A stretch of DNA of 64,000 bases from Desulforamulus ruminis DSM 2154 (GTDB taxonomy: Bacteria > Bacillota > Desulfotomaculia > Desulfotomaculales > Desulfotomaculaceae): NCBI RefSeq assembly GCF_000215085.1, contig NC_015589.1, forward strand, positions 1,178,001 through 1,242,000. Reading direction: 5' to 3'. A program made the position numbers and the translations under genes. Positions 6,394 to 10,340 of this stretch are shown here, one piece after another; positions within the stretch are counted from its first letter, which is position 1, and each line of letters starts with the position of its first letter. Under the pieces are notes generated by a model. The model did no database searches, was not told the DNA's origin, and was given only the letters and a program-made list of their open reading frames with translations.

Positions 6394-6835
6394 TCTGCAG
6401 GAAGAATTACCCGTGGAGGAAAGCCTGATCAAACTGGTTGAAGCGGTTGTTCTCCAGTGTCTTAAGTCCGAGGACTATTCTCCCGAGGCGGAAGTGGGAT
6501 TGATTTTTGTTGACGACGCCTACATCCAAAGCCTGAATGCTGAATACCGGGGTGTGGACAGGCCTACGGACGTTTTATCCTTTGCGATGAATGAAGGAGA
6601 AGCGATGCCGGAGGAGGAGGACTCGGAGGACCTGCTGGGAGATATTGTTATTTCCTTGCCGACCGCCCAGCGACAAGCCTTGGAATACGGCCACAGTTTT
6701 GAGCGGGAAGTGGCCTACCTTACGGCCCATGGTTCCCTGCATCTCTTGGGTTACGATCATGAAGACGATGTAGGCAGAAAAGTGATGAGGGATAAAGAGG
6801 AGGCTGTGTTGAACCGCCTCCATATTACCAGGTGA
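6374..6835 (+). CDS. ybeY: Endoribonuclease YbeY (rRNA maturation factor)
   Basis: This 153-residue zinc-dependent endoribonuclease acts in 16S rRNA 3'-end maturation and ribosome quality control. The family signature HGSLHLLGYDHED is present at about residues 117-129 with three zinc-binding histidines. The RPTDVLSFAM block characteristic of the family lies near residue 62. Its start overlaps the end of pgpH and its stop overlaps dgkA. The phoH-ybeY association is a well-known conserved context. Confidence 0.96.
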   Translation: MPVLVSNLQEELPVEESLIKLVEAVVLQCLKSEDYSPEAEVGLIFVDDAYIQSLNAEYRGVDRPTDVLSFAMNEGEAMPEEEDSEDLLGDIVISLPTAQRQALEYGHSFEREVAYLTAHGSLHLLGYDHEDDVGRKVMRDKEEAVLNRLHITR

Positions 6836-7197
6836 TGATTTTGTCTCGGAAACCTTTTTACCGCAGTTTTTTATACGCTCTGGCCGGAATCCTGCATGCC
6901 TTAAAAACCCAAAGAAATATGAAGGTTCACATGGTTGCAACCTTTCTGGTGGTGACGGTGGGCCTTTTTTTGCGTTTGTCCCGGGGAGAGTGGCTGGCAA
7001 TCACTTTTGCTGTTTTTCTGGTTCTAATGGCCGAAATGCTGAACACAGCCATCGAAGCCGCCCTGGACCTGTACTGCCCCCGGCAGCACCCCCTGGCCAA
7101 AATTGCCAAGGACTGCGCCGCCGGAGCCGTATTACTGGCCGCCATCAATTCAATCATTGTGGCCTATCTGGTACTGTGGCCGAAGATGGCCGGCTAG
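6835..7197 (+). CDS. dgkA: Diacylglycerol/undecaprenol kinase
   Basis: This 120-residue small integral membrane kinase belongs to the DgkA family. In Gram-positive bacteria this family usually phosphorylates undecaprenol and recycles the lipid carrier. Three hydrophobic segments and the signature FLVLMAEMLNTAIEAALDL are visible, including the catalytic glutamate and conserved asparagine; HPLAKIAKDCAAGAVLL follows. Start is an ATG overlapping the ybeY stop (TGATG); a GTG three bases earlier is also possible. The usual order continues with cdd and era downstream, but a repeat array separates them here. Confidence 0.93.
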   Translation: MILSRKPFYRSFLYALAGILHALKTQRNMKVHMVATFLVVTVGLFLRLSRGEWLAITFAVFLVLMAEMLNTAIEAALDLYCPRQHPLAKIAKDCAAGAVLLAAINSIIVAYLVLWPKMAG

Positions 7198-7215
7198 CCT
7201 TACGGGTCCTGTAGA

Positions 7216-7317
7216 AAATGGAATAAGACCCAATGGAATACGTATAGTCTAGCAACAGGACCCGAAAGCAAGGCCTGTAAGGCCAACAACGGGACCCCGA
7301 AGAAACGCCTTTGAGGC
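7216..7317. repeat. Three tandem units of a 34-bp repeat upstream of cdd
   Basis: Two clear units lie at 7250-7283 and 7284-7317, with a weaker one at 7216-7249. Each unit runs from a (T/C)A(G/A)CAAC-type start, through GGACCC, to an end AAGGC or GAGGC. The units abut with no spacers. Reverse-complement copies lie just downstream of cdd at 7739-7832 and more same-strand copies at 7861-7928. The array fills most of the dgkA-cdd gap. Its function is unknown. Confidence 0.8.
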
Positions 7318-7352
7318 TAGAATACCCCCTAAGCAAAGAAGGAGTTGATTAA

Positions 7353-7739
7353 ATGAGTATCGCTGCGGAAAGACTTATCCATATGGCCCTGGAGGCCAGA
7401 GAAAAGGCCTATGTGCCTTATTCCAAGTTTAAAGTGGGTGCTGCCCTGGCCACCAGCGACGGTCGTATTTTTACCGGCTGTAATGTAGAGAATGCTTCCT
7501 ACGGACTTACCTGCTGCGCCGAGCGGACGGCTCTTTTTAAAGCCATATCCGAGGGCTGCCGAGAGTTTGATTCCATTGCCGTGGTGGCCGATGTACCGGA
7601 CCTGTGCAGCCCCTGCGGCGCCTGCCGCCAGGTATTGTCTGAATTTGGCGGCCATATTAAAGTGCATATGGCCAACTTGAAAGGAGAATATAAAACCGTT
7701 ACTGTGGACGAACTTTTACCGGGAGCGTTTAAACTATAG
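7353..7739 (+). CDS. cdd: Cytidine deaminase
   Basis: This 128-residue cytidine deaminase converts cytidine and deoxycytidine to the uridine forms in pyrimidine salvage. It has the standard zinc motif CAERTALFKAI with the catalytic glutamate near residue 54, and PCGACRQVLSEF near 88-99 supplying two further cysteines. VPYSKFKVGAAL near the N-terminus is also typical. ATG start with GAAGGAG upstream. The gene lies between dgkA and era, as in Bacillus, but both flanks are filled with 34-bp repeats that could base-pair across it. Confidence 0.96.
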   Translation: MSIAAERLIHMALEAREKAYVPYSKFKVGAALATSDGRIFTGCNVENASYGLTCCAERTALFKAISEGCREFDSIAVVADVPDLCSPCGACRQVLSEFGGHIKVHMANLKGEYKTVTVDELLPGAFKL

Positions 7740-7928
7740 GGTATTTCTCCGGGGTCCCGTTGTTAGCCTTTGGAGCATTTCCCCGGGTCCTGTTATTAGT
7801 CTATGAGGTGTTCCTGAAGGGTCCTGTAAGGGATCAAGCTCAAAAGAAATACCCGTACACTAACAACTGGACCCATGAGTAGTGCTTATAAGGCTAACAA
7901 CTAGACCCATAAGCAATACCCATAAGGC
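7739..7928. repeat. Bidirectional 34-bp repeat array between cdd and era
   Basis: From 7739 to about 7832 three units run in one orientation (GGGTCCTGTTATTAG-type ends). After a partial unit at 7845-7860, two units run in the opposite orientation at exactly 7861-7894 and 7895-7928. Adjacent units abut directly. The two halves are inverted relative to each other, so the transcript could fold into long hairpins. The downstream half is the same orientation as the array upstream of cdd. The last unit ends two bases before the ribosome site of era. Confidence 0.82.
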
Positions 7929-7944
7929 AAGAGGAGGTTATTCA

Positions 7945-8853
7945 ATGTTCAATACGCCCGAGGGATACCGTTCGGGTTTTGTGGCCTTGGTAGGGCGGCC
8001 CAATGTAGGAAAATCAACTTTGTTAAATAAGCTGGTGGGTCAAAAGGTGGCTATTATGTCCGATAAACCTCAGACCACCCGGCATAAAATACATTCGGTG
8101 CTGAGCAGGAACGACGCGCAAATTATTTTTCTGGATACACCGGGGATTCACAAACCCCGTCACAAGCTGGGCGAACATCTGGTGGATGTGGCCCTGGGCG
8201 CGCTCAAAGAAGTGGACGTGGTGCTGTTTCTGGCAGAAGCCAGCGATCCGCCGGGGGCCGGAGATCAGTATATCGCCGAGCAGCTTAAAGGGCTAAAAAC
8301 CCCGGTTTTTTTGCTTTTAAATAAAATTGACCTGATCAAAAAAGAGGAAATACTGGAGCGGATTCATCAATACAAGGACCTGGCGCCTTTCGCAGAGATT
8401 GTGCCGGTTTCCGCCCTGGCCGGAGAAAATGTGGACCGGCTCATTGACGTGATTATTCGGTACCTGCCGGAAGGCCCCCAATATTACCCGGCGGAAATGG
8501 TAACCGACCGCCCGGAGCGGTTTATTATGGCTGAGATTGTCCGGGAAAAGGTTTTACACCTGACCAGTGAAGAGATTCCCCATTCGGTGGCAGTGGTGGT
8601 TGAACAAATGCAAAAGCGCAGCAACGGTCTGGTGGCGGTCAATGCAGTCATTTATACCGAGCGGGATTCCCAAAAGGCCATTTTAATTGGCAAAGGCGGT
8701 AAAATGTTAAAGGAAGTGGGCCGGCGGGCCAGAGAAGAAATTGAAAACCTGCTGGGCTCCAAAGTATATCTGGAGCTTTGGGTTAAAGTGAAGAAGGATT
8801 GGCGCAATAAAGTGGGGGATCTTAAAAATTTTGGCCTTTTTGAAGAGGAATAG
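7945..8853 (+). CDS. era: GTPase Era
   Basis: This 302-residue Era GTPase assists 16S rRNA and 30S subunit assembly. It has G1 GRPNVGKSTLLN near residue 14, G3 DTPGIH, G4 NKIDLI, and a C-terminal KH RNA-binding domain with the AILIGKGGKMLKEVG loop. An open frame extends upstream to 7882, but that part lies in the repeat array. The ATG at 7945 follows GAGGAGG with a proper gap and gives the family N-terminus. It is followed 15 bases later by mgtE. Confidence 0.97.
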   Translation: MFNTPEGYRSGFVALVGRPNVGKSTLLNKLVGQKVAIMSDKPQTTRHKIHSVLSRNDAQIIFLDTPGIHKPRHKLGEHLVDVALGALKEVDVVLFLAEASDPPGAGDQYIAEQLKGLKTPVFLLLNKIDLIKKEEILERIHQYKDLAPFAEIVPVSALAGENVDRLIDVIIRYLPEGPQYYPAEMVTDRPERFIMAEIVREKVLHLTSEEIPHSVAVVVEQMQKRSNGLVAVNAVIYTERDSQKAILIGKGGKMLKEVGRRAREEIENLLGSKVYLELWVKVKKDWRNKVGDLKNFGLFEEE

Positions 8854-10236: not shown

Positions 10237-10340
10237 AATAGAACGCGGATTGAACGGATGATACGGATTTACACGGATTTTTATTAAAAATGATAAAATC
10301 CGCGAGAATCCGTGAAAATCCGAAAAATCCGCGTTCTATT
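10237..10340. repeat. Palindromic CGGATT-rich repeat element
   Basis: Two arms of about 45 bases (10237-10281 and 10295-10340) are reverse complements with few mismatches. Each arm begins or ends with AATAGAACGCGGATT and contains CGGATT repeated about every 10-13 bases. The short loop is AT-rich. It sits between the convergent genes mgtE and ubiX and could form a large stem in DNA or RNA. A shorter relative is found at 57870-57929, suggesting a dispersed family. Confidence 0.8.

Follow-up and report, generated by a model that had tools for sequence, protein, structure and literature searches.

The cytidine deaminase gene of Desulforamulus ruminis is flanked by abutting repeat units of about 34 bp that point in opposite directions, and these units might be a peculiarity of one gene, the remains of a mobile element or part of a wider system. 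The window analysed here is a stretch of 64,000 nucleotides (1178001-1242000) of the D. ruminis genome, a single contig of 3,969,014 bp with dnaA at base 130 (designated G000 in comparisons with other genomes).

Two palindromic elements flank cdd

The initial annotation had placed cdd at the centre of one array. The natural objects are instead two separate palindromes, at about 7185-7336 and 7733-7927, each a member of a genome-wide family. The first lies between an ORF at 6832-7197 and cdd, the second between cdd and era. The identities of ybeY, cdd and era were confirmed by NCBIfam; the ORF at 6832-7197 had no NCBIfam match, and "dgkA" is the name given to it by the initial annotation. The features of the locus are as follows.

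7185-7218, minus strand: half-unit forming the left arm of the element in front of cdd; core at 7199-7212, PWM score 12
7216-7248, plus strand: degenerate unit with an AAGACCC core, seen by eye and missed by the PWM
7249-7282, plus strand: 34-bp unit, PWM score 37.7
7283-7316, plus strand: 34-bp unit, PWM score 33.6
7317-7336, plus strand: partial outer unit (CTAG..AATACCC), found by eye and repeat search, stopping just short of the cdd ribosome-binding site
7353-7739, plus strand: cdd, cytidine deaminase gene (TIGR01354, 160 bits against a cut-off of 114)
7733-7766, minus strand: 34-bp unit, outer left arm, overlapping the cdd stop codon, PWM score 38.0
7766-7799, minus strand: 34-bp unit, left arm, PWM score 20.9
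7800-7833, minus strand: 34-bp unit, inner left arm, with its GGGTCCTGTA end at the tip, PWM score 18.4
about 7841-7859, plus strand: half-unit (AAAGAAATACCC), inner right arm, found by repeat search and partly paired in the predicted fold
7860-7893, plus strand: 34-bp unit, right arm, PWM score 34.1
7894-7927, plus strand: 34-bp unit, outer right arm, PWM score 40.5
7733-7940, plus strand: the cdd-era element as RNA, predicted to form one imperfect hairpin, MFE -84.7 kcal/mol
7945-8853, plus strand: era, GTPase gene, the downstream cistron (TIGR00436, 327 bits against a cut-off of 116)

As can be seen, the abutting 34-bp units are real (7249-7282, 7283-7316, 7860-7893 and 7894-7927). The two downstream units are 34 bp each, as first described, although their coordinates had been given one base too high (7861-7894 and 7895-7928). 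Three plus units had been reported upstream of cdd; two of them are clear and the third (7216-7248) is degenerate. The same cluster had been thought to have a single orientation, but the minus half-unit at 7185-7218 had been overlooked, and since it is present, this cluster is bipolar as well. The half-unit is weak, its score of 12 being under the catalogue threshold of 13; its 14-nt core (7199-7212) is 93% complementary to 7255-7268, and it is paired in the predicted fold of 7185-7345. Behind cdd, the three opposed units lie where they had been seen, on the minus strand at 7733-7766, 7766-7799 and 7800-7833. Both plus units reported in front of era also hold, but a further plus half-unit at about 7841-7859 had escaped notice. 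In both elements, then, minus units come first and plus units follow, although the first element has only the weak half-unit on its minus side.

When the window was searched with the pattern CTAACAACNGGACCC, allowing up to 3 mismatches, 11 matches were retrieved where 5.3 were expected; the 6 with 0-1 mismatch are without exception units flanking cdd. A period-10 tandem array (AAAATCCGCG, 4 copies) was seen at 10295-10333 of the window.

The units belong to a genome-wide family

The initial annotation had proposed a search of the genome and of related species for the unit, and had reasoned that its absence elsewhere would point to local slippage. The pattern AACAACNNGACCC has 51 exact matches in the D. 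ruminis genome; with one mismatch allowed it becomes noisy (186 matches against 131 in a reversed control). A sequence-only unit model built from 64 units retrieved 182 matches in the genome at E<=1, and the unit PWM retrieved 120 against 8 in the reversed control (20 loci). The unit consensus is CTAACAACAGGACCCnAAAGnAATACCCnTAAGG. A slippage product confined to cdd would explain why tandem 34-mers abut without spacers, but the 182 genomic matches, together with matches in all 8 congeners searched, refute it as the whole explanation, and we give it practically no weight.

Using a PWM threshold of 13, we catalogued 59 elements in 374,852 bases around unit matches, the window included. Both polarities are present in 52 of the 59 and one polarity in 7, and in none does a plus unit precede a minus unit; these counts exclude weaker matches overlapping a stronger opposite-strand match within 18 bp, as well as clusters of fewer than 3 matches none of which scores above 20. 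An element as a whole makes up a single large palindrome, with tandem 34-mers forming both arms. Its ends are sharp, as the consensus extends by about four further bases (CTAA/CTAG) before it breaks off. Of 137 same-strand spacings, 111 are 34 ± 1, and a minor peak lies at 27-28.

The module length follows the rule 27+7n, with n=1 in D. ruminis and a varying n in its relatives, whose arms are filled by arrays of heptamers. The density of tandem heptamers is 2.66 per 100 nt in the elements of a congener, G003, compared to 0.04 in those of D. ruminis. Because of this spacing rule and the heptamers of G003, the 34-mer can be read as a block of 27 nt to which a single heptamer is added.

Positions within the unit are unevenly kept. 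Per-position identity to the consensus ranges from 0.15 to 0.92 (chi2 391, 33 df) in 74 neighbour windows chosen by register out of 180, the other 106, with under 17 of 34 matches, being left out. The best-kept positions are C14, C8, C13, A22 and A32, so that C positions are among the best preserved. This unevenness suggests recognition of the sequence, though subfamilies, the 17-of-34 cut or detection bias may contribute; it would also be compatible with the binding of a protein to the array, which the initial annotation had considered.

Near-identical young copies are absent except for one duplicated segment. The same element occurs at 203978-204145 and 211986-212153 of the genome (L200), about 8 kb apart and in identical near surroundings, i.e., a segmental duplication.

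Predicted RNA folding

The initial annotation had also suggested that the cdd message could fold into long stems. The segment 7733-7940 can indeed do so, with an MFE of -84.7 kcal/mol compared to -56.5 ± 4.1 for shuffled sequences (z -6.9, 0/200 as good), while the fold of the first element (7185-7345) is less favourable (-50.1, z -3.1). The pairing possible across cdd (93% over 27 nt) does not stand out, since arms taken from unrelated elements pair with each other just as well as the two arms of a single element.

Over 50 elements the mean fold z was -4.6, elements under 100 bp being left out. When arms were compared in 51 elements, without the duplicate at 211986, pairing was no stronger between cognate arms than between arms drawn from different elements (-64.8 vs. 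-63.0 kcal/mol); the summed cognate pairing was -3303.6, compared to -3212 ± 72 in permutations. Covariation therefore supports no RNA fold, and we do not claim a conserved RNA structure. The sense strand was predicted to fold better than the antisense strand in 38 of 50 elements. The same preference was found in 60/69 element-free gaps and 160/207 coding segments, and the advantage per 100 nt was -2.7 kcal/mol in 45 elements, -3.9 in the 69 element-free gaps and -2.6 in the 207 coding segments. The bias equals the background and was dropped as a sign of selection on RNA. Relative to transcription the two arms are alike, as expected of a palindrome at the DNA level.

Distribution and fillings in related genomes

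At E<=0.1, unit matches were found in 17 of 41 genomes, including all nine of the genus (D. ruminis counted). Within the genus, G003 has 173, D. ruminis 155, G001 66 and G008 32, and the lowest number is 3; G009, a member of the same family, has 43. Of 113 genomes of the class, 21 contain an exact copy of the inner 18-mer box GGGTATTYCTTTNGGGTC, and none contains its reversed control. In an even sample of the phylum, 7 of 398 genomes contained it, 4 of them among the 383 genomes outside the order.

What stands beside the box differs. By eye, the fillings are heptamers (among them GGCCGTC, CTGTCTA, GTGGGAC, GGTTAGT and CGAACGT), runs of ACAGGATTA, or halves of a GGGGACACACCTC palindrome. In other genera another palindrome, GGGGACACACCTC..GAGGTATGTCCCC, was seen to be split by the 18-mer box, which looks as though it had been inserted at the tip of that palindrome (L210, L222, L227, L228 and L229).

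In G003, spacings peak near 27, 34, 41, 47-48, 54-55 and 61-62. With spacings of 33-35 removed, 76 remain, of which 50 differ by no more than 1 from 27+7n, compared to 3/7 expected (p 5e-5). Of its 49 clusters, joined over up to 250 bp, 30 run minus-then-plus, 18 have one polarity and 1 reads +++---+.

Shared gaps with rewritten content

Proteins of G003 and D. ruminis are 81% identical, and their fourfold sites are 48% identical (3,913 sites). Nevertheless, many element gaps are common to these related species with largely diverged neutral sites. Of the 49 G003 elements, 21 share their gene gap with a D. ruminis element (19/47 without the two hand-picked cdd gaps). Twenty-four G003 element gene pairs are adjacent in the D. 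ruminis DNA compared, and 21 of these 24 gaps hold an element, a proportion that is inflated because the DNA compared consists of the surroundings of elements only; 21/49 is the floor. Without the two cdd gaps, 19/22 hold an element, compared to 56/287 gaps in the same DNA (Fisher p 2.5e-10).

The content of shared gaps is not shared. The likeness of orthologous elements was 2.23 ± 0.16, not higher than that of non-orthologous ones (2.34 ± 0.05), in 16 pairs, 3 of 19 being left out; orthologous elements were not more alike over all 19 pairs either (P 0.17). Within-genome likeness was 2.46 and 2.58, a small excess.

Inspection by eye of the recR and cdd gaps revealed elements with other fillings in G001, G006 and G008 and, partly, in G002 and G005. 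None was seen in these gaps of G004 and G007, and none at recR or cdd in G009, G010 and G036; in G002 no recR match was found. The cdd-era gap of G002 (L163), where D. ruminis has its 34-mer element, is occupied by an unrelated palindrome, GTAGGGGGCGATGCCCACATCGCCCC. A block like GTCATAAAGTTTGTCC..CCCCCTATAT is conserved genus-wide before the gene following recR, which we take to be BofA-like (L196; also L302-L306 and L310). The block resembles a sporulation-sigma promoter; in D. ruminis and G003 the repeat element stands just behind it.

Placement between co-directional genes

The elements occupy the space that separates a stop codon, which they follow directly, from the next ribosome-binding site, and with few exceptions the genes on either side are co-directional. 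Gene calls based on codon usage, which replaced a crude longest-ORF rule (48/59 co-directional), placed 54 of the 59 elements between co-directional, 4 between convergent and 1 between divergent genes. Among gaps of at least 100 bp in the same DNA, 1 of 56 with an element was divergent, compared to 22 of 106 without (Fisher p 6e-4). For elements that have both arms and lie between co-directional genes (n=47), the upstream stop codon is a median 4 nt away and the downstream start codon a median 32 nt.

Counted in quarters from dnaA, the elements number 32, 13, 9 and 5 in D. ruminis and 33, 7, 8 and 1 in G003. This origin-proximal bias may only mirror the location of conserved operons.

Comparison with known repeats

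The initial annotation knew of no named element with this pattern, and we found none for the bipolar array; Rfam and the literature outside subscription likewise yielded no match. In 7150-7960 no Rfam family reached its gathering score (best 15.5 bits against 39). The plasmid collection gave no match and the phages one weak match (E 0.6). In the literature outside subscription, words of the box and unit sequences returned chance word matches only, and the topics of repeats and heptamers returned analogues only. In the passages of the D. ruminis genome paper covered (PMC3569383), "repeat" appears only as a CRISPR count and in one reference, and "intergenic" is absent.

REP/BIME sequences are described as extragenic, multi-copy palindromic units in alternating orientation (PMC2817692), and BIMEs inserted in operons affect downstream expression (PMC3049150). 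The family resembles them in being extragenic and in many copies. In contrast to REP/BIME, its arms consist of 34-mers in tandem and palindromy exists at the level of the whole array only: whereas a REP/BIME unit is a short (20-40 bp) imperfect palindrome with a conserved tag (GTAG/CGTC), the 34-bp unit itself is no palindrome. As to orientation, all 52 bipolar elements have one block of minus units followed by one block of plus units, without unit-by-unit alternation. A REPIN/RAYT system, in which copy number is tied to a Y1 transposase, does not fit either. The Y1 family PF01797 is present in 13 of 14 genomes, with 0 members in G010 (15 unit matches) and 7 in G007 (3 unit matches).

The pneumococcal BOX element (boxA-boxB(n)-boxC) is, by description, alike in its modularity only, both being modular intergenic repeats. 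BOX has a variable number of inner modules, folds if transcribed and is enriched between convergent genes, whereas D. ruminis elements lie between co-directional ones; the passages covered mention neither a 27+7n length rule nor identical modules in opposition for BOX (PMC3049150). Correia/NEMIS, ERIC and other MITE-like repeats are transcribed within operons and can direct RNase cleavage (PMC3049150). Here, in contrast, the arms are tandem arrays and no target duplication was found. At the edges of 52 elements the longest shared word was 4.42, compared to 4.31 in permutations (P 0.19), so that the target-site duplication that flanks the terminal inverted repeats of a MITE was not found, though old insertions could have lost it. 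A CRISPR array is discounted by units that abut, with a spacing equal to the unit length, on two opposed strands.

In Beggiatoaceae, TAACTGA heptamers form intergenic arrays, mostly near start codons and some inside ribosomal-protein operons; they are direct repeats with one inverted case (MacGregor 2015; PMC4679880). The D. ruminis unit contains one look-alike of that heptamer, TAACAAC. Unlike the Beggiatoaceae arrays, the heptamers here are bounded by a box of 18-27 nt and set as opposed arms. Cyanobacterial STRRs are another type of heptamer repeat. Tandem 7-nt arrays of that type are nearly lacking in D. ruminis and reach 2.66 per 100 nt in G003, and the 27+7n rule links both. By the features tested, the family cannot be filed under REP/BIME, MITE, CRISPR, terminator or Rfam.

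Discussion

D. ruminis carries about sixty modular, palindromic, intercistronic repeats. The family, its anatomy, its placement and the shared gaps are the firm part of our findings; how the repeats act and persist is a matter of weighing readings. The likeliest, which we nonetheless put at slightly under an even chance, is an old BIME/BOX-like repeat between cistrons that is transcribed and undergoes homogenisation genome by genome. The elements would be read through within the operon message, and a long imperfect hairpin would form between cistrons, working like REP/BIME or BOX as a 3' barrier for the upstream cistron or as a processing site. Modules would be homogenised by copying between elements and by gain or loss of 7-nt and 34-nt steps, and the core (C8, G11-C14, A19, A22, C26 and A32) may be kept because a factor, or the copying itself, recognises the sequence and not a precise fold. 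The points in favour are the bipolar layout of 52/59 elements, co-directional placement, stop-codon proximity, the fold z of -4.6, shared gaps, the 27+7n spacing, the missing extra likeness of orthologous elements and the uneven conservation of unit positions; against it count the lack of arm covariation, a strand bias at background level, the symmetry of the arms and the fact that no copying enzyme was found. Were such stems, stable and immediately past stop codons, intrinsic terminators or attenuators, a T-run should follow, but TTTT occurs within 15 nt past the 3' arm in only 2 of 45 co-directional elements, and the genes that the elements separate, cdd and era for instance, are co-directional and close together; we consider this highly improbable.

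A selfish or neutral non-autonomous mobile repeat (MITE/REPIN-like), spread by some transposase and surviving where it is harmless, behind stops in operons, is a possible but less likely account. It would sit well with the avoidance of divergent promoters, the lack of covariation between arms, the lineage-specific fillings, the box nested within other palindromes in other genera and the sharp ends at CTA(A/G). Gaps would then be shared because insertion recurred at the same tolerated sites or because loss was slow; yet 19/47 unselected elements share gaps between species, which would need strong hot spots, and there is neither a target-site duplication signal (P 0.19) nor a Y1 transposase linked to copy number, nor are there near-identical young copies beyond the one duplicated segment, nor matches beyond the weak phage one in the plasmid and phage collections. 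We think it rather unlikely that the units form a DNA-level binding-site array for a sequence-specific protein (a nucleoid organiser, or a replication or segregation factor), in which opposed units would join bound proteins at gene ends. The uneven conservation of unit positions, the strict spacing of 34 ± 1 (111/137), the symmetry of the arms and the strong origin-proximal bias (32/13/9/5 and 33/7/8/1) all speak for such an array, but the bias may have the cause given above, 34 bp would not be a whole number of B-DNA turns, unit number and filling vary freely among species, DNA binding does not require stop-codon placement or a co-directional bias, and no protein was identified.

It is rather unlikely, if conceivable, that a trans-acting sequence-specific factor recognises the opposed 27+7n modules in about sixty intercistronic positions that are ancestral and origin-biased; these positions would be fixed while their content is overwritten genome-wide by copying in 7-nt steps. 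If true, the family would exemplify concerted evolution of a bacterial dispersed repeat and not a decaying mobile element. Conserved sites with non-conserved content make the family a testable case for concerted evolution of dispersed bacterial repeats and tie isolated reports of heptamer repeats to a defined capped, palindromic architecture. If the intercistronic-repeat reading is right, dozens of operons in these sulfate reducers would contain a long structured intercistronic spacer that annotation ignores.
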